In this document: positions 35,495 through 44,284 of the stretch, piece after piece | Position numbering within the stretch: position 1 is the stretch's first letter | Layout: each line of letters starts with the position of its first letter | Assembly: GCF_000238255.3 (NCBI RefSeq) | Contig: NZ_CP011039.1 | Coordinates: 1,227,001-1,291,000 of the forward strand | DNA length: 64,000 bases | Source of the DNA: Pseudoalteromonas spongiae UST010723-006 | GTDB taxonomy: Bacteria > Pseudomonadota > Gammaproteobacteria > Enterobacterales > Alteromonadaceae | Reading direction: 5' to 3' | Made by a program: the position numbers and the translations under genes | The notes under the pieces: generated by a model | Told to the model about the DNA's origin: nothing | The model's database searches: none | The model's input: only the letters and a program-made list of their open reading frames with translations

Positions 35495-36301
35495 TTATTT
35501 TTGCGTTGCGGCTTTCATATTACGTACAAAGCTTTCAAGCTCGCTTAGCATAGTTTCAGGTGATTCAAGGTTATTCTCGATAATCTTAACTACTGCAGAG
35601 CCTGAAATGGCACCTGCGGCACCTGAGGCAATTGCCGCTTTTACATCTTCAGGGGTTGAAATACCAAAACCCAGAAGCGCAGGTGCTGCGTTAAAATTTA
35701 ATAACTTTTTGATCATTGAATCTGCAGGCATTTGCGCTTTGGTTTCGGTACCCGTAACACCTGCGCGCGAGAGCAAATAGGTATAACCACGGCCGTAAGA
35801 TGCGCATTGGCGAAGTGTATCGTCATCAGCATTTGGCGTGGCAATAAAGATAGGCTCTATCTCTGCTTGCATGGCAGCTTGTCTAAACATTTTTGACATA
35901 TGCAGCGGCACATCAGCAACTAAAATTGAATCAACGCCCACTTCTTTTGCTGTGCGATAAAAGTTATCAATGCCCTGTGCTAACACTAGGTTTGAATAAA
36001 GCAGTAAGCCAATTGGAATATCCGCGTTGTACTCACGTACTTTACGAATTATTTCAAAGCTCTCAGCTGTGGTGATTTTATTTTCGAGCGCGCGAATATT
36101 GGCCGCCTGAATCACCGGGCCATCAGCGATTGGATCTGAGAATGCAATACCTAGCTCCAGCGCATCAGCGCCGCCGTCAATTAAGCGTTTAATAATCTCA
36201 AAGCTTAATTCTTTGTTTGGGTCGCCAATGGTAACAAATGGCACAAATGCACCTTGGTTAACTTCATTTAATGCGTGAAATGCTTGTTGATAGCGGCTCA
36301 T
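35495..36301 (-). CDS. trpA: Tryptophan synthase alpha chain
   Basis: TrpA cleaves indole-3-glycerol phosphate to indole and glyceraldehyde-3-phosphate in the alpha2beta2 complex. The 268-residue TIM barrel shows FVTIGDP, the catalytic Glu region ([19 protein letters not shown], with the catalytic Asp in it) and loop 6 (SRAGVTGTE). Length equals E. coli TrpA (268). The start overlaps the trpB stop by 4 nt, allowing translational coupling. Confidence 0.97.
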
Positions 36302-37488
36302 AGTTTGCCTCCTTGATTTAACACTGTATGCACGTGCGCTAAATCTTTGTCACCACGGCCACTTAAATTCACTACAATAATGGTTTCTTCACTTTTTTCT
36401 TCAGCCAGCTTTAATGCGTAAGCAAGGGCATGGCTTGATTCAAGCGCCGGAATAATCCCTTCGTTTTTCGCAAGTAGCTGGAATGCTTCTAAAGCCTCAT
36501 CATCACTAATGCCAACATATTGGGCACGGCCTGTTTCAGCAAGGTGTGCATGCTGAGGGCCAACCGCTGGGTAATCAAGACCTGCAGATACCGAGTAAGA
36601 CTCTTCGATTTGGCCGTTGCTGTCTTGCATAATAAAGGTGTATGCACCGTGCAAAATGCCTTTTGTGCCTTTACAAATTGCCGCGCCATGCTCGTCAGTA
36701 TCAAGGCCTTTACCTGCTGGCTCAACGCCAACCAGTTTTACACTTTCATCGCCAATAAAGTCATTAAACATACCAATTGCGTTAGAGCCACCACCAACAC
36801 AGGCAATCACATAATCTGGTAGGCGGCCTTCTGTATCAAGTACTTGTTGTTTTGCTTCTTCACCAATCATTTTTTGGAAGTCGCGTACAAGTGTTGGGAA
36901 CGGGTGCGGGCCTGCTGCTGTACCAAGTAAGTAGTGTGCCGTATCGTAGTTTGCTGACCAGTCGCGCATTGCTTCGTTAACCGCATCTTTTAATGTGCCA
37001 GAACCTGCGGTAACAGGAATGACTTCTGCGCCCATTAGTTTCATTCTAAATACGTTTGGTTGCTGGCGTTCTACGTCTTTTGCACCCATGTAAACGCGGC
37101 ATTTTAAGCCAAGTAGTGCACAAGCTAGGGCGGTTGCTACACCGTGCTGACCAGCACCGGTTTCAGCAATGACTTCTTTTTTGCCCATACGTTTTGTTAG
37201 TAATGCCTGACCTAACACTTGGTTGGTTTTATGTGCGCCACCGTGCAGTAAATCTTCACGTTTAAGGTAAAGTTTTACCTTAGGGTTTTTCACTAAATTG
37301 CGTGTAAGCGTCAGTGGCGTAGGGCGACCGGCATATTCATTAAGCAGCTTTTCAAACTCTGCATGAAAGCTAGGGTCGTTCTTTGCTTTATTAAATTCAC
37401 TTTCAAGTTGTTTTAAGGCGGGTACCAGAAGTTCTGGTACGTACATGCCGCCAAAATCGCCGAAATAGGCTGGGTTTTTATTTTCCAC
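36298..37488 (-). CDS. trpB: Tryptophan synthase beta chain
   Basis: TrpB is the PLP enzyme joining indole to serine. The 396-residue protein carries the PLP lysine in [18 protein letters not shown], the phosphate loop GGGSNAIG and the NLSGRGDKD end. This is the TrpB1 type, partner of TrpA. It starts 1 nt after the trpCF stop. Confidence 0.98.
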
Positions 37489-37489
37489 C

Positions 37490-38851
37490 TCAAGATTCCT
37501 TTATCTTAGAAAACACAGAATTAATTTGTTGATGACATTTTTTACCTGGGCTTGTTTCAATGCCCGAATTTAAATCAAGGCCAATGGCTTGGGTTGCAAG
37601 CGCATCAATAATATTGTCGTTATTTAAGCCGCCTGCGAGCATATAGTTGCGTTCGTTAATCAGCACATCCCAATTAAAGGTTTGCCCCGTACCACCGCTT
37701 TGGTTGCCCACTTTGGTATCAAATAAATAGCGATCAGCCCCTTGGCTCTTATGTTCAATCACATCGCTTACCGCAACGGCTTTCCATACTTGCACGCTCG
37801 CTGGTAGCGCCTTTTTAAGCGTAGCAATATAGGTTTCGTCTTCATCGCCATGTAACTGTACTGCAACCAGTTTTAGCTCAACGGCAATATGTACAATGGT
37901 GTCAATCGTTTCGTTTACAAATACGCCAACAAAGCCTAAATCGCAGCTATCGGCAATTGGTTTTGCACAGTCAATATCAACGTAACGTGGCGATTTTGCA
38001 TAAAAAATCAGGCCACCAAATACCGCGCCCGCATTATATGCGGCAATCGCATCTTGTGAGCGCGTCAAACCGCACACTTTATTTTCACCTAGAATCAGCT
38101 TACGACAGGCCAAATCAAGGTTCTGTTCAGCCATCAGTGAGCTGCCAACTAAAAAGCCGTTACACAGAGATTTTAAGCGTTTTACATCAGCGTGAGTGTA
38201 AATGCCCGATTCTGAAATAACCACTTTCCCTGCAGGGATTAACGCACGAAGGGTTTCTGTAGTGGCAAGGTCGGTACTTAAATCACGCAGATTACGGTTA
38301 TTAATACCAATAATCTCAGCGTCGAGTGTTAATGCGCGGTGTACTTCTTCTTCGTTACTCACTTCGGTCAAAATTGCCATATTGAGCGATTTTGCCACCT
38401 TTGCAAGCGCGGAGTACTCATCATCATTAAGCACACTTAGCATCAGTAAAATTGCATCTCCACCGTGCAGGCGTGCTAAATACACTTGGTACTCATCAAT
38501 GAAGAAATCTTTACAAATAAGCGGTTGATTCACCAATGAACGTACTTTAGTTAAGTAATCAAAACTGCCTTGAAAGTATTTCTCGTCAGTCAGTACACTA
38601 ATGCACGCAGCGTAATGCTTGTAAGCACCGGTAATTTCATCAAGATTAAAATCATCACGAATAAGCCCTTTGGATGGCGAGGCTTTTTTACACTCTAAAA
38701 TAAAGTTAGTGCCGGGTTTTGCTAGTTCGCCGTAAAAATCACGCTCGGTTGGTACCACCTCATCAATAAAGCTTTCAAGTGGCTTATTGGCTTTACGCGA
38801 TCCAAGCTCAATGCGTTTATCGGCAACAATTTTTTCTAATACATTAGCCAT
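37490..38851 (-). CDS. trpCF: Bifunctional IGP synthase / PRA isomerase
   Basis: This fused protein carries indole-3-glycerol phosphate synthase (about 1-255; [29 protein letters not shown]) and phosphoribosylanthranilate isomerase (about 258-453; [10 protein letters not shown], ending [14 protein letters not shown]). The fusion is the gammaproteobacterial form. I chose the ATG at 38851 ([13 protein letters not shown]); a start 45 nt earlier is unlikely. The chosen start overlaps the trpD stop by 8 nt. Confidence 0.97.
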
Positions 38852-39851
38852 GAGACACCTCGATAATGCGTGATAAATGTGAAAACGCTGCGCCACTTTC
38901 CAGGTGGTTTTGTACCGCCTGTGTTGCGTCTTTAAAGTTGCTGTAGTCGCCTTGCATTACAAGCACGGCTGCAACATTTGCGGCAATCGCTGCATTGTGC
39001 GCAGGCTTGCCTTCACCTTTTAAAATCGCAAGGCTTGCCGCCGCGTTATAATCAGGCTCGCCACCTTCAATATCTGATAGGGCATAGTTATCAAGGCCAA
39101 AATCTTGCGGTTGTAGAGTGTACTCAATAATTTCACCGTCTTTTAGCTCGGCAACCTGTGTTTCACCGTGTAGGGCAATTTCATCGGTACCTGCACCGTG
39201 GACCACCATAACCCGCTCACAGCCAAGTAGTTTAAGTGTTTGCGCCATCGGGCGAAGTAATTCAGGGGTATAAACCCCAAGCAGTTGATGGCTTGGTTTT
39301 GCAGGGTTTGCCAACGGCCCTAAAATATTAAATAAGGTGCGTGTTTTAAGTGCGGTACGCACTGGCATCGCGTATTTCACACCTGCATGGTAAAGCGGTG
39401 CAAATAAAAAGGTAAAATGGGTTTTTGCTAGGCAGTTTTCTGCTTGTGCCACACTCATATTAATATTGATGCCAAGGGCATTAAGTAAGTCAGACGAGCC
39501 CGATTTACTTGAAACACTGCGGTTGCCGTGTTTTACCATATTAACGCCCATGCTCGCGGCAACAATGGCAGCAGTAGTTGACACGTTAATTGAATTGGCA
39601 CCATCACCACCGGTGCCACATGAATCAAAGCTTATGGCACTTGGGTTAGTAAATGTCACTGCATTATCGCGCATGGCTTTTGCAGCACCTGCAATTTCGT
39701 TGTCGGTTTCGCCTTTAATTTTAAGCGCGGTTAACGCTGCGGTAAGCTCGATTTCGCTAACTTGACCTGTCATTACAAGATTAAAAAACTCGCTGCTCTG
39801 TTCAAACGTTAAATCTTGTTGTTCGATTAAGAGATTAACAAGTGGTTGCAT
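38844..39851 (-). CDS. trpD: Anthranilate phosphoribosyltransferase
   Basis: TrpD transfers phosphoribose from PRPP to anthranilate. The 335-residue stand-alone enzyme carries the PRPP loop (DSCGTGGDGANSINVST) and the KHGNRSVSSKSGSSDLLNALG signature. It is not fused to TrpG, unlike in E. coli. Its first base overlaps the last base of trpG. Confidence 0.97.
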   Translation of the reverse strand: MQPLVNLLIEQQDLTFEQSSEFFNLVMTGQVSEIELTAALTALKIKGETDNEIAGAAKAMRDNAVTFTNPSAISFDSCGTGGDGANSINVSTTAAIVAASMGVNMVKHGNRSVSSKSGSSDLLNALGININMSVAQAENCLAKTHFTFLFAPLYHAGVKYAMPVRTALKTRTLFNILGPLANPAKPSHQLLGVYTPELLRPMAQTLKLLGCERVMVVHGAGTDEIALHGETQVAELKDGEIIEYTLQPQDFGLDNYALSDIEGGEPDYNAAASLAILKGEGKPAHNAAIAANVAAVLVMQGDYSNFKDATQAVQNHLESGAAFSHLSRIIEVSHG

Positions 39852-40450
39852 TATGCGCCCTCCACATTGGCTAAATAAGCTAGGCTTTGCTTTAACAGCT
39901 GTGAGCCATTTGGCGTTAAAATTGATTCTGGGTGAAACTGAAACCCAATTACTTTATCTTGCTCTTGAATAATTGCCATAGGAATTGTGTCGTAGCTGGC
40001 AATGACATCAAGGCTATCTGGTACTTCGGTTGCCATGAGTGAATGGTAACGCGCCACTGGTATTTGCGAATGTAAGCCACTAAATACTGCGTGCTCTTTA
40101 AGTTCTATAAGTGATGATTTGCCATGCACTGTTTCACCTGCGTGACCAACCACACCACCGTAACACTCCACAATTGCTTGGTGGCCTAAACAAATACCCA
40201 GCATAGGGTAGCGGCCTTTCGCTTTATTGATAAGCTCAATTAAATTGCCCGCTTGTTTTGGGGTGCCAGGGCCAGGTGAAAGTACTAATGTTACAGGGCA
40301 AGTTTCCTCAGCCATTTTGCTTAAAATGGTGTCGGCCGGAACATGGTTACGATAAACCACCAGTTCAAAGCCCAATTGCTCAAATTCATCCACCAAGTTG
40401 TAGCTAAACGAATCAAAATTATCGATAAAGTAAATTTTTGCCTGCGCCAT
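39851..40450 (-). CDS. trpG: Anthranilate synthase component II (glutaminase)
   Basis: TrpG is the class I glutamine amidotransferase feeding ammonia to TrpE. The 199-residue protein has the nucleophile motif GICLGHQAI (Cys around residue 85), the catalytic His-Glu pair in FQFHPES and an oxyanion SPGPGTP. Free-standing TrpG of this kind often also serves PabB (inference). The start overlaps the trpE stop by 1 nt. Confidence 0.96.
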   Translation of the reverse strand: MAQAKIYFIDNFDSFSYNLVDEFEQLGFELVVYRNHVPADTILSKMAEETCPVTLVLSPGPGTPKQAGNLIELINKAKGRYPMLGICLGHQAIVECYGGVVGHAGETVHGKSSLIELKEHAVFSGLHSQIPVARYHSLMATEVPDSLDVIASYDTIPMAIIQEQDKVIGFQFHPESILTPNGSQLLKQSLAYLANVEGA

Positions 40451-42033
40451 TAGGCTTCTCCTTGGTAGATAGACTTAATTGCACGAATAACCGCTTGTGC
40501 TTTTTGGCGAGTTTCGTTTGCTTCTAGTTGTGGCACTGAGTCATAAACTACGCCTGCACCTGCTTGCACGTAAGCCATATTATCTTTAACAAAGGCACTA
40601 CGAATAACAATGCAGCTGTCCATCGCACCATCACCAGTTAAATAACCCACAGCACCACCGTAGCTGCCACGGCGTTTACCTTCGGTAATACGCACCAGCT
40701 CGGCCGCTTTTACTTTTGGTGAGCCAACCAAGGTGCCCATATTCATACACGCTTGGTAGGCATGCAGTGCATCCAGCTCAGGTTTTAATTGACCTACCAC
40801 GCGCGATACTAAATGCATCACTTGCGAGTAGCGGTCAACTTTTAATAATTCTTTTACGTAGCGCGAACCCGGTGTTGAAATGCGGGCAATGTCGTTACGC
40901 GCTAAATCAACTAGCATAATGTGCTCGGCGCGCTCTTTTTTATCATCGCGCAAATCTAGTTCAATTTTGCTATCAAGGTCAAAGTTAATGCTGCCATCAA
41001 CATTTTTACCACGGGCACGCGTACCGGCAATTGGGTAGACCTCTACTTGATTGGTGCTTTGGCAATATTTAAGCGCAGATTCGGGTGATGCACCAAATAA
41101 CACAAAGTTTTCATCTTTCATGTAAAACATGTAAGGGCTTGGGTTTTGTGTTTTAAGCTGATGATATGCTGCAAGTGAGTCAGCACATGGTAATGAAAAA
41201 CAGCGAGACGGCACGACTTGGAAAATGTCGCCATCGACAATGTGTTTTTTAAGGGTTTCGACTTGTTGACAAAAGGTTGCGTCGTCAATATCAACACTTT
41301 CACTTACAGCGCCCGGAAAGGTTGGGGCATTATAAGCTGGTAAATCGTCACACAGCTTATTAAGTGCTTCAAGCTTTTGGCCTACTTCAAAACAGTTGGC
41401 GTGTGCGTCGGGACCGCTAAATACATTGCCAATAAGTTCTGTGGTATTTGCTTGATGGTCAATAACAATCAGTGTTTCTGCAAGATAAAAAACAAAATCA
41501 GGGGTTGTGTTATCGCCGTTTGGTACGTCTGGAAGTGACTCAAAGTTGGCAACCATATCGTAGGCAAAAGTGCCGCCTAAAAATACTGCAAAATGAGATT
41601 CTGTGGTGCTTTCAATATTATTGATACATTGTCTTAATGCGGTAAATGCATTGTCAGCCACTAAGCGACTCGCTTCATCCATCAAACTGGTATCGCGTTC
41701 AAACACAATGCTTAGGCTTGAATTTGCAAGTTCAACGTTGTGATCTTTAAAAAAGCCAGCTAAATGGGGTAGTAGCTGTTTGCCGTTATTGCTTTTTGCA
41801 TCAAACGTTACCGTGTCACCATTACATTCAATACGAATAGCAGCATCGGCTAAAATTAAACTTTTTACATTATCTTTTGAATCAATTTCCGCTGATTCTA
41901 ACAATAAGCTATTAAAGTTAGTCGGGTTGTTACATACCGCGCTGTAAAGTGCTAGTGGACTTTCAATGTAGTCCCGCGCCAGCGAAATGCTGGTAACTTT
42001 ACCGACCTCGGTTGATATATGACTAAATATCAC
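40450..42033 (-). CDS. trpE: Anthranilate synthase component I
   Basis: TrpE converts chorismate to anthranilate with TrpG. The 527-residue protein has the feedback-inhibition pocket LLLES near residue 44, the chorismate-binding C-terminal domain (PIAGTRARG, the TrpE-type motif in place of the PabB PIKGT; MGTLVGSPKVKA) and the QAGAGVVYDSVP end. The start is a GTG with AAGGAATGAGG just upstream. It is the first structural gene after the two leader peptides. Confidence 0.96.
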   Translation of the reverse strand: MIFSHISTEVGKVTSISLARDYIESPLALYSAVCNNPTNFNSLLLESAEIDSKDNVKSLILADAAIRIECNGDTVTFDAKSNNGKQLLPHLAGFFKDHNVELANSSLSIVFERDTSLMDEASRLVADNAFTALRQCINNIESTTESHFAVFLGGTFAYDMVANFESLPDVPNGDNTTPDFVFYLAETLIVIDHQANTTELIGNVFSGPDAHANCFEVGQKLEALNKLCDDLPAYNAPTFPGAVSESVDIDDATFCQQVETLKKHIVDGDIFQVVPSRCFSLPCADSLAAYHQLKTQNPSPYMFYMKDENFVLFGASPESALKYCQSTNQVEVYPIAGTRARGKNVDGSINFDLDSKIELDLRDDKKERAEHIMLVDLARNDIARISTPGSRYVKELLKVDRYSQVMHLVSRVVGQLKPELDALHAYQACMNMGTLVGSPKVKAAELVRITEGKRRGSYGGAVGYLTGDGAMDSCIVIRSAFVKDNMAYVQAGAGVVYDSVPQLEANETRQKAQAVIRAIKSIYQGEA

Positions 42034-42050
42034 GCCTCATTCCTTATACA

Positions 42051-42076
42051 AAAAAGCCCGCTTAGAAGGCGGGCTG
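42051..42076 (-). terminator. trp attenuator 2 (terminator proximal to trpE)
   Basis: On the minus strand AGCCCGC pairs with GCGGGCT around a 7-nt loop, followed by a T-run. It lies between the second leader peptide and trpE. A CGCGGGAGG segment after the leader stop (plus-strand complement at 42096-42104) can pair with the CCCGCC arm to form an antiterminator. Confidence 0.9.
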
Positions 42077-42108
42077 AATAATAGACAAACAAAATCCTCC
42101 CGCGTTAA

Positions 42109-42153
42109 TTACAGGAACCACCACCATTGGATTAGTTGTTTGTTATTACTCAT
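42109..42153 (-). CDS. trpL: trp leader peptide 2 (MSNNKQLIQWWWFL)
   Basis: This is a 14-residue leader read on the minus strand from ATG at 42153 to TAA at 42109, with a GAGGTG ribosome site. It contains three consecutive TGG Trp codons (residues 10-12) just before the stop, followed by the antiterminator segment and attenuator 2. This is the standard layout for ribosome-mediated attenuation by charged tRNA-Trp. Confidence 0.93.
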   Translation of the reverse strand: MSNNKQLIQWWWFL

Positions 42154-42174
42154 TATTCACCTCAAATTAGACAT

Positions 42175-42203
42175 AAAAAAACCCGCACATTGTGCGGGTT
42201 TTA
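42175..42203 (-). terminator. trp attenuator 1 (distal terminator)
   Basis: On the minus strand AAAACCCGCAC pairs with GTGCGGGTTTT around a 3-nt loop and is followed by T residues. It lies between leader peptides 1 and 2. A CGCGGGTGGG segment after leader 1 (plus-strand complement at 42227-42236) can compete for the CCCGC arm. Confidence 0.9.
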
Positions 42204-42237
42204 AGAATAGTTTAGATACAATTATTCCCACCCGCGA

Positions 42238-42288
42238 TTACGAGTGCCACCACCATACTGTTTTGATTTGTGAAGTTACTAATTGCAT
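42238..42288 (-). CDS. trp leader peptide 1 (MQLVTSQIKTVWWWHS)
   Basis: This is a 16-residue leader read on the minus strand from ATG at 42288 to TAA at 42238. AGGA lies about 8 nt before the ATG. It contains three consecutive TGG codons (residues 12-14) near the stop, followed by its own competing segment and attenuator 1. It is a second, upstream copy of the trp attenuation device. Confidence 0.88.
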   Translation of the reverse strand: MQLVTSQIKTVWWWHS

Positions 42289-42317
42289 TTAAACGATTCC
42301 TAAAATGTTTCAGCCAT

Positions 42318-42347
42318 AGTAAACCCCAGATTGTATACATGAGTCAA
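42318..42347 (-). promoter_or_regulatory. Candidate trp promoter
   Basis: On the minus strand TTGACT (42347-42342) and TTTACT (42323-42318) are separated by 18 nt. This would place the RNA start about 20-25 nt before leader 1. A TrpR operator was not convincingly found. The -10 match is weak. Confidence 0.4.
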
Positions 42348-42426
42348 CACAAAACCGCCATTTTTTATAACTAATCGGATTTGTTAGTGTTTATTGGTTA
42401 TAAGCAGTGTTTAAACAGTTATAAAA

Positions 42427-43272
42427 TCAGGGTTTTAGTGGCTTTTTACCAAGCACAACCAGCAAAATTCCGATTAGAATAATAGCTCCAGAAATTGCTA
42501 GTCGTTCACTGATAGGCTCGGATAAAAATAAAAAGCCACCAATACCGGCAATAATAGGTACCGAGAGCTGCGATACAGCTGCTTGCACTGAGGTTAAGTG
42601 TTTTAGTGCAACATACCAAATGGCGTAACCAATACCTGATGTCACACTGCCAGCTATCACAGCGAGTAAAATCCCTGTGGTTGAGGCATTAGTTGAGTTG
42701 AGTGTCATCAAGCTTAGTAACGTTATAAAAGGTAAGGTGCGCATAAAATTAAAGGCGGTATCGGCAAGGGGATTAGATGAGTTTTTGCCAGCTAAGGTAT
42801 AGCCCGCCCACGCCATACCCGAAATCATCATAAGCACAAAACCAGTCAGTGAAGGTGATGAAATATCAGGCAGCACCAAGTAGCTAAAACCAATAAACGC
42901 AATTAGCGCGCCGCACCATTCGATAGGATAAATTTTGGTACCTGAAAAAAAGGTATAAGCAAGCATGCTAAATTGCACCGATGAAAAGAGCACAAGTGCC
43001 CCAATAGCGGTTTCAAGTGAAATATAGGCATAGGAAAAGGTTATGGCGTAAATAAACAAATAAACGGCGCCAAGCCATGAACCTTTGCTCGCTGTTTGTT
43101 TATTTTTATGAAAAAGGGCGTAAAGAATAAAAAGCGTTATCGCACCTGAGAATAAACGAATTGAGGTGAAGCTTGCGGCGTCAATTTGCCCTTGCCCAAG
43201 GGCTATTCGGCAAAGAATAGAGTTTCCAGCAAAGGCGATAAGTGAAAGTAGGGTAATTAGCAGTATTTTCAT
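42427..43272 (-). CDS. EamA/DMT-family transporter
   Basis: This 281-residue protein has ten predicted membrane helices in two EamA halves (about 5-130 and 140-275), with the typical second-half pattern VAVVSQLSVPIIAGIGGF-like (AAVSQLSVPIIAG). DMT proteins of this size usually export metabolites or amino acids. It lies upstream of the trp leader on the same strand, with the trp promoter in the gap. The substrate is unknown. Confidence 0.9.
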   Translation of the reverse strand: MKILLITLLSLIAFAGNSILCRIALGQGQIDAASFTSIRLFSGAITLFILYALFHKNKQTASKGSWLGAVYLFIYAITFSYAYISLETAIGALVLFSSVQFSMLAYTFFSGTKIYPIEWCGALIAFIGFSYLVLPDISSPSLTGFVLMMISGMAWAGYTLAGKNSSNPLADTAFNFMRTLPFITLLSLMTLNSTNASTTGILLAVIAGSVTSGIGYAIWYVALKHLTSVQAAVSQLSVPIIAGIGGFLFLSEPISERLAISGAIILIGILLVVLGKKPLKP

Positions 43273-43429
43273 AAATTAAAGCGGCACTGTTTATTATTAA
43301 TCGAGTTTAAACAGATAAAGACCTTTATTCGCAAATATTAATTTCCCAAATGAAAGCAAACAAATCAGCAAGAGTAATTAGCCACTGAATTTGGTATGAT
43401 TACACGCAATACAAACGAAAACCATATTT

Positions 43430-44284
43430 ATGAAATTTGACCTACACAGCCATACGTATTATTCCGATGGCAAGCTATCCCCAGAAGACTTAGTTGAACG
43501 CGCCGTTGAAAAAGGCGTTGATATATTAGCGATTACCGATCACGATACCGTTAAGGCGCTGCCAATTGCACAGCAACATATCGACAAAAATGCGTTACCG
43601 CTGACACTTGTTAAGGGCATCGAGTTTTCAACTAAGTGGGAAAGCTTTGAAATTCATATTGTTGGTTTAAACATTGATGTTGAAAATAGCACTTTGGCAT
43701 GCTTGATTGCTGAGCAAACAGGAAAACGCGCAACACGCGCAGAAAAAATGGCTGAAAAGCTCGAAAAACGCGGGTTTGAAAACGTATTAGAACAAGCAAA
43801 AGCGTTAGCCAACAAAGGCCAGCTTACCCGCGCTCATTTTGCTCAAGTAATTCAAGCGCAAGGGGCAGCAAACACTTTACAAGGGGTGTTTAAAAAATTT
43901 TTAGTGCGCGGTAAACCGGGATATGTAACCAGCGAATGGTGTGATGTTGCCACTGCCGTGAAGGCAATTAAAGCTGCAGGTGGTCAAGCGGTATTAGCAC
44001 ATCCAAGTCGTTATAAATTATCCAATAAATGGTTGCGCCGTTTGCTTGAAGAATTTAAACATGCTGGTGGCGATGGCATTGAAGTGGCGCTGCCACAACA
44101 AGCACCGAGTGATCGTCAGTTTTTAGCCCAGCTTGCTGAAGAATATCAGCTGCTTTCGTCGCAAGGTTCAGATTTTCATTTTGCAACCAACTGGTTAGAA
44201 CTTGGAAAGAACTTATACTTACCTAAAGCCAGTGTGCCAATTTGGCAGGATTGGGCGATTGCCAAAGAACAAGAATTAAATTAA
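43430..44284 (+). CDS. rnm: PHP-domain 5'-3' exoribonuclease / nucleotide phosphatase (YciV/RNase AM type)
   Basis: This 284-residue PHP enzyme has the metal-ligand motifs DLHSHTYYSDGKL (residues 3-15), AITDHDT, KGIEFS, VLAHPSRY and SDFHF. In E. coli YciV (RNase AM) matures 5' ends of rRNA and hydrolyses 3',5'-bisphosphonucleotides. It has the same neighbours as in E. coli: divergent from the trp operon and followed by yciO. Spacing to yciO is 9 bp. Confidence 0.92.
   Translation: MKFDLHSHTYYSDGKLSPEDLVERAVEKGVDILAITDHDTVKALPIAQQHIDKNALPLTLVKGIEFSTKWESFEIHIVGLNIDVENSTLACLIAEQTGKRATRAEKMAEKLEKRGFENVLEQAKALANKGQLTRAHFAQVIQAQGAANTLQGVFKKFLVRGKPGYVTSEWCDVATAVKAIKAAGGQAVLAHPSRYKLSNKWLRRLLEEFKHAGGDGIEVALPQQAPSDRQFLAQLAEEYQLLSSQGSDFHFATNWLELGKNLYLPKASVPIWQDWAIAKEQELN

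Follow-up and report, generated by a model that had tools for sequence, protein, structure and literature searches.

The textbook example of RNA regulation is the trp attenuator, shown as one unit working with a repressor. The E. coli type (Rfam RF00513) combines a leader ORF with adjacent Trp codons, the alternative pairings 1:2, 2:3 and 3:4 and an intrinsic terminator, with trpE downstream. A published model describes this attenuator with a basal read-through of 10-15%, argues that a read-through this high is needed for dual control with a repressor (range about 70), and contrasts E. coli trp with the repressor-free his operon (PMC1183508). In the same account, the Salmonella his attenuator carries an extra hairpin between the pause hairpin and the terminator and cuts its leak inside a single unit (PMC1183508). 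TrpR regulons have been reconstructed in eight gammaproteobacterial lineages, and the trp operon of Shewanella is there left to attenuation (PMC5343134).

Doubled elements in a single leader have been described in other systems. Tandem T-box riboswitches precede trp genes in Bacillota, where they are expected to act pseudo-cooperatively, and the tandem T-boxes of the Trp pathway are said to be exclusive to that phylum (PMC12452182). The Salmonella mgtCBR leader holds two leader ORFs with attenuation (PMC3641672), and the rimP leader of some gammaproteobacteria is reported to have two tandem terminators and a possible antiterminator (PMC2965389).

Here we describe a locus in a window of 64,000 nucleotides (the whole stretch of DNA analyzed) from Pseudoalteromonas spongiae UST010723-006, in which trpE is very probably preceded by two ribosome-mediated trp attenuators in series on one leader transcript. 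The locus shares all the elements of the E. coli-type trp attenuator listed above but differs from it in having two serial units, in scoring below the Rfam gathering threshold and in a family in which TrpR does not rise above cut-off. Like the tandem trp T-boxes, it would set two similar sensors of tRNA-Trp charging one behind the other ahead of trp genes; T-boxes, however, are described as reading uncharged tRNA directly (PMC12452182), whereas here the translating ribosome would be the sensor. The mgtCBR leader is presented as responding to two signals, ATP and proline, through stem-loops unlike intrinsic terminators (PMC3641672), whereas here one signal would act on two intrinsic terminators. 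The rimP leader, as described, is without an amino-acid leader peptide and belongs to a different gene (PMC2965389). The his attenuator is likewise repressor-free and, as modeled, lowers leak within one unit, whereas here a second unit has been added (PMC1183508). The closest precedents are the tandem trp T-boxes and the mgtCBR attenuators; the attenuator type is known, and the tandem ribosome-mediated trp version is the variant that this locus adds. An ermB system with two leader peptides has reportedly been found as well (PMC8274638). Among the top-ranked titles and abstract openings of one open literature library we found no account of tandem leader-peptide trp attenuators, which does not amount to a claim of absence from print. 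The parallel with Bacillota would mean that two unrelated sensors of tRNA-Trp charging have each been doubled before the same pathway.

The host genome comprises two contigs (4.75 Mb). The operon, like its leader, lies on the minus strand and reads trpEGD(CF)BA, with consecutive genes from 42033 down to 35495. It consists of trpE (40450..42033; NCBIfam NF010079, anthranilate synthase component 1, 770 bits), trpG (39851..40450; TIGR00566, above cut-off), trpD (38844..39851; TIGR01245), a trpCF fusion (37490..38896; NF006945), whose true start may be further in, trpB (36298..37488; TIGR00263) and trpA (35495..36301; TIGR00262). The trpE start is a GTG at 42033, and across the genus the codon opening the TrpE match is seldom ATG (TTG 53, GTG 6, ATG 2; n = 61). 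The closest named TrpE match is that of Pseudoalteromonas sp. P1-9 (98% identical), and the best-ranked named TrpE loci all come from Pseudoalteromonas (39/39).

Both leader ORFs can be read directly. Leader ORF 1, MQLVTSQIKTVWWWHS, runs from ATG to TAA at 42238..42288 and ends in WWWHS, with its three Trp codons at 42247..42255. Leader ORF 2, MSNNKQLIQWWWFL, occupies 42109..42153, ends in WWWFL with three Trp codons at 42118..42126, and is preceded by a Shine-Dalgarno-like GAGGTG at 42158..42163. In each leader, two sense codons separate the three Trp codons from the stop, beyond which come GCGGG, a CCCGC/GCGGG terminator hairpin and a U tract. Segment 2 is GCGGGT at 42230..42235 in unit 1, where it would form either the pause hairpin with segment 1 or the antiterminator with segment 3, and GCGGG at 42099..42103 in unit 2, assigned by reading and folding. 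The intrinsic terminators, each formed by segments 3:4 and a U tract, were located by pattern scan and folding at 42175..42202 (terminator 1) and 42050..42075 (terminator 2). Folding also predicts an extra hairpin between segments 2 and 3 of unit 1 (42204..42228), in the manner of the Salmonella his attenuator. The preliminary description had placed two attenuation units in series upstream of trpE, with three TGG codons near each leader stop; its positions are right, and the codons are present at 42255-42247 and 42126-42118.

Each unit thus comprises a short ORF that has a start, a ribosome-binding site and, close to the stop, adjacent Trp codons; an intrinsic terminator between the leader and the structural gene (by sequence and folding); and a 2:3 antiterminator exclusive with the 3:4 terminator, for which the window's unit 2 by itself gives weak evidence. 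In both units, segment 2 is predicted to be exposed by a stall at the Trp codons and hidden by a ribosome at the stop codon. When charged tRNA-Trp is scarce, the ribosome would stall at the Trp codons, segment 2 would pair with segment 3, and the 3:4 terminator would be blocked; a ribosome that reaches the stop codon would cover segment 2 and let the terminator form. RNA polymerase would have to escape both terminators before it reaches trpE, so that total read-through should be the product of two read-throughs. Regulation of either unit by charged tRNA-Trp is what the sequence suggests; the stalling, the termination, the multiplicative effect and the role as a substitute for a repressor are steps that we infer from this architecture. 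Given such an arrangement, a multiplied repression or a sharper response would follow from the arithmetic of terminators in series: at high Trp the leak would be lower with two units, and the logarithmic responses to Trp supply would add up.

Such a series requires that leader 1 is transcribed together with leader 2. A promoter in front of unit 1 is suggested by a -35 element TTGACT (42342..42347), identified by reading and genus consensus, and a -10 element TTTACT (42318..42323), which would place the transcription start near 42311. The promoter-like pattern TTGAC[A/T], 17-18 bases, T[T/C]TACT is found 34-45 bases 5' of leader 1 in 61/61 genus upstreams. No conserved promoter was found between the units across 58 genomes, the best internal score varying from 6 to 9 of 12. 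An internal promoter bypassing unit 1 was rejected: the one scan match (42250-42221, 9 of 12) begins inside the Trp codons, and the upstream site is universal in the set. Since the upstream site is conserved and no internal one is, leader 1 is very likely transcribed with leader 2, and a start downstream of 42240, which the preliminary description had considered, appears unlikely.

Several comparisons bear on the window by itself. Terminator-like sites number 4 in 1 kb on both strands, against 0.7 (sd 1.0) in shuffles, and two of the four are terminators 1 and 2. The Rfam RF00513 Trp_leader model matches both units, at E 7e-5 (35.3 bits) and 3.5e-4 (32.7 bits); neither reaches the gathering cut-off of 41 bits, and the tandem leader, although of the same build, is therefore kept out of RF00513. 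No T-box family appears among the 11 Rfam matches to 41000-43500 (up to E = 1). Folding of both units, proposed earlier as a check, agrees with expectation for unit 1 (z -3.8 against shuffles) and gives a weak result for unit 2 of the window (z -1.5, 16/200 shuffles as good), whose antiterminator is equaled by 24/200 shuffles. The genome contains 90 TGGTGGTGG sites, against 114 for the reversed control; the motif is common genome-wide, so a Trp run by itself proves nothing. This abundance speaks for coincidence or artefact, whereas genus-wide conservation and the triple covariation of the competing segments speak against it and exclude chance, leaving such an explanation a negligible probability. 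The case is carried by the Trp run, the short ORF, the terminator, the alternative pairing and the conservation together; the evidence for two units is moderate from the single genome and decisive genus-wide.

For the comparison within Pseudoalteromonas, 80 trpE upstreams were collapsed to 61 distinct ones by merging those with identical last 380 bases before counting. Both Trp leaders are present in 58/61. A terminator lies 3' of the leader in 61/61 unit-1 and 58/58 unit-2 cases. These counts come from a fold-based scan, which recovered all 61 and 58; two hairpin detectors each missed some second terminators (in one of them, for example, those of L007 and L119), and L119 is accordingly counted with one terminator in the comparison of named loci. 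The unit-1 leaders have WWW in 61/61, and the 58 unit-2 leaders have WWW (50), WW (4), WWWW (3) or WGW (1). Mean pairwise nucleotide identity is 0.74 in unit 1 and 0.62 in unit 2, against 0.37 in the inter-unit spacer and 0.35 just 5' of the promoter.

A fading second copy, with only one unit that matters, would be compatible with the four WW and the single WGW leaders of unit 2, and with three upstreams (L027, L031 and L146) that lack the second leader yet have a second terminator. Unit 2 is nevertheless kept, with its terminator and 2:3 pairing, in 58/61 upstreams despite TrpE being only 70-74% identical to that of the window in most sampled species, and we regard decay of one copy as very improbable. 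The two-unit layout is genus-wide and recurs in other families, which the preliminary description had not contained.

The competing pairings are conserved along with the layout. In the predicted stalled-state fold, 61/61 unit-1 and 58/58 unit-2 cases show a 2:3 pairing of 4 bp or more, in line with the earlier proposal that CGCGGG, found 3' of both window leader stops at 42236-42231 and 42104-42099, could compete with each terminator. Among spacer shuffles, 24% for unit 1 and 35% for unit 2 also pair by 5 bp or more, so that a 2:3 pairing in one genome is weak evidence and the test by itself is only mildly specific. Counted from the first base of the Trp run, the 2:3 pairing sets in 19-24 bases downstream in unit 1 and 14-23 bases downstream in unit 2. 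If the ribosome covers about 12 bases downstream, as this reading of the geometry assumes, segment 2 would be free when the ribosome stalls at the first Trp codon and covered when it stands at the stop.

Covariation was assessed in 225 units (119 from Pseudoalteromonas and 106 others), and the competing segments covary as triples in 221/225, the 4 units without core motifs being omitted. Among these 221, the base that precedes CCC in segment 3 forms triples with the bases facing it in segments 2 and 4, namely A/T/T (77), G/C/C (67) and C/G/G (17). In 35 further units the base is a C that pairs with a G in segment 4 and is unpaired in segment 2. Such a C is found in 52/58 Pseudoalteromonas unit-2 sequences, 1/61 unit-1 sequences and 0/106 others; where it is unpaired in segment 2, the antiterminator of Pseudoalteromonas unit 2 is one pair shorter than its terminator, which is often the case. 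A fold-free count, for which 14/225 units without core motifs were omitted, gives 146, 207, 173 and 188 standard pairs at four variable pairs in 211 units, above the maxima of 102, 126, 155 and 176 in 2000 shuffles; the rows are related by descent, and hence these counts are not a probability. Hairpins that exclude each other would be expected to leave such joint changes across three segments.

The two units are not equivalent in predicted strength. The duplex with the anti-Shine-Dalgarno sequence reaches -4.3 kcal/mol for leader 1 and -11.5 kcal/mol for leader 2 in the window, with genus means of -1.3 and -4.6 kcal/mol, and in 56/58 genomes the ribosome-binding site predicted for leader 2 is the stronger. 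Hence, translation of leader 1 may be inefficient. Mean terminator hairpins in the genus are -13.0 kcal/mol for terminator 1 and -18.4 kcal/mol for terminator 2; the window reverses this ranking (-15.7 and -10.8 kcal/mol, respectively). Both asymmetries suggest that the units may be set for different leak and sensitivity. A stronger division of labor can be imagined, in which a weakly translated leader 1 terminates by default and sets a basal flow, or yields a trans-acting RNA or peptide, while leader 2 is the true Trp sensor. The difference in ribosome-binding sites fits this idea, as does a trp leader peptide reported to act in trans in Sinorhizobium meliloti (PMC7298713). However, unit 1 is the better conserved of the two and its WWW is invariant, as expected of a sensor, and the DNA encoding the N-terminal parts of both leader peptides is more variable (identity 0.58 for leader 1 and 0.48 for leader 2), which argues against a peptide with a role of its own. 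We therefore consider non-redundant units unlikely, while still worth entertaining, and continue to read both units as Trp attenuators.

The three upstreams without a second leader (L146 is strain NBT06-2) have one WWW leader and two terminators. In 3/3 of them, segment 4 of the first terminator is complementary to segment 5 of the second over 8 bp across a 10-base loop. In this one-leader form, a stalled ribosome could open both gates through 2:3 and 4:5 pairing, and a released one could close them through 3:4 and 5:6. The same 8 bp run could be taken to suggest cross-talk in two-unit genomes, where segment 4 of unit 1, once freed by a stall on leader 1, would pair with segment 3 of unit 2 and so disable terminator 2, such that leader 1 opens both gates. 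Watson-Crick runs of 5 (28 genomes), 6 (27) or 8 (3) bases between these segments are indeed found in 58/58 two-unit genomes. Both segments share a CCCG/CGGG core for other reasons, however, so such runs are expected anyway; moreover, a leader ORF intervenes in the two-unit genomes, and the full-length minimum-energy folds of the three one-leader genomes favor both terminators. Cross-talk thus seems improbable, and each of the two attenuators probably responds to its own leader.

Duplication followed by divergence had been put forward as the origin of the pair. A rapid TrpE phylogeny built from 80 named loci separates T1lg75 and T1lg88 as the sister lineage of the remaining Pseudoalteromonas (SH-aLRT 97); T1lg88 has an identical 20-base block in both units straight after the Trp codons, with a unit likeness of z 12 against shuffles. 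Over 58 genomes, unit 1 resembles unit 2 with a median z of 4.15, a value to which shared function by itself would contribute. The shared block is compatible with a duplication before the genus spread and later divergence, and conversion within T1lg would look alike. The unit tree (132 units, 85 columns) has only 9 starred of 129 branches, and a constraint grouping all Pseudoalteromonas units is not rejected (p 0.75), which is no proof of a clade.

Tandem units also occur beyond the genus. Among 41 named loci outside Pseudoalteromonas in the same sampled family neighborhood (L150-L190), two leaders with two terminators are present in seven, namely one Algicola and six of the Rheinheimera group. 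A single leader and terminator were seen in 29, and the remaining five carry an additional ORF with Trp codons without reaching two units backed by a terminator. Two units were also found at the family loci L068, L073 and L108. In two further families of the same order, tandem trp leaders with terminators were present in 5/5 loci read (family f7, L192-L196) and 4/4 loci read (family f15, L227-L230). In all nine, the tandem leaders precede the same DAHP synthase-type ORF, identified as DAHP synthase by NCBIfam at L192 and likened to it by similar beginnings in the other eight. Close same-strand Trp_leader pairs occur in at least 11/23 f7 genomes among the matches listed, four of which were read.

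The distribution of TrpR was compared with that of the tandem units. TrpR (PF01371) is above the Pfam cut-off in 0/196 genomes of the family, with weaker matches in ten, and the window's own genome has no PF01371 match; across the order, TrpR was found in 125/295 genomes. None of the 23 f7 genomes or of the five sampled f15 genomes is among these 125. Conversely, close same-strand Trp_leader pairs were found in 0/40 TrpR-bearing genomes from nine families at E 0.002 (3/40 had no match at all), and no second unit is present in seven TrpR-bearing representatives that were read. Outside f1 and f7, 36 genomes without a TrpR match were searched at the same threshold, and three of them have a Trp_leader pair, all of them f15; a fourth f15 genome has two units yet was unpaired in the search (3/4 shown), so the Trp_leader search misses some. 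By family, tandem units occur in 3/13 without a TrpR match versus 0/9 with TrpR, a difference that is not significant (about 0.19 by hand). A TrpR-operator-like motif is found under strict matching in 0/61 genus upstreams, the window included, and in 3/7 TrpR-bearing representatives, and under loose matching in 1/61 versus 5/7. A TrpR-regulated trp operon was rejected for the window, given the missing PF01371 match and strict operator-like motif. In the genomes sampled, the tandem layout goes with an absent TrpR match. Loss of TrpR as a sufficient cause of doubling was rejected, since many genomes without a TrpR match have one unit, as do the 29 single-unit loci above.

As the family appears to be without TrpR, the second attenuator might plausibly supply the dynamic range that the repressor gives in E. 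coli. It is possible, though short of probable, that doubling is a recurrent all-RNA substitute for TrpR with the low leak and wide range that elsewhere take a repressor and an attenuator together, in Pseudoalteromonas, Algicola, part of Rheinheimera and two more families of the order, and that a side branch of Pseudoalteromonas has been reduced to a single leader that switches two terminators by alternating pairings. If each unit leaked 10-15%, as in the E. coli figure, two in series would leak about 1-2%, which is a direct prediction for lineages without the repressor. A genus with two serial attenuators and no repressor seen is a natural experiment on the benefit of a second attenuator.

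Doubling of all amino-acid leaders in the genome was rejected. In the window's genome, the his operon has a single leader, MLNTLNTIHHHHTTE, with a single terminator-like hairpin (L191:1151-1289), and doubling is thus not general in this genome. A class-wide screen for two TGGTGGTGG sites 129-158 bases apart matched 90/369 genomes; in 30 loci scanned among the matches listed, only the window's own qualifies as tandem attenuators, in a screen that sees only this spacing and TGGTGGTGG and is blind to WW or WRWW leaders.

Other arrangements of Trp-rich ORFs were noted upstream of trpE. In six genera of the family (L052, L056, L071, L081, L089 and L093), one WWWHN attenuator is followed by a second short ORF 129-199 bases before the trpE match, and no terminator was found after it. 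Its peptide is conserved as K.WF[I/L]WWLLP[I/L]YAG, which suggests a nascent-chain or membrane role over codon counting. Three other families (L038, L040 and L044) have a single attenuator and then a W-R-W short ORF 5' of trpE, again with no terminator found. At L042, in a TrpR-bearing genome with an operator-like site, the only trp leader is 41 codons long and contains two WW pairs set apart from each other. In part of Rheinheimera (L157, L160, L161, L163, L173 and L178), the second leader is a longer, conserved one that carries the motif ISWRWWQFS..GP..D.C and may or may not have a terminator.
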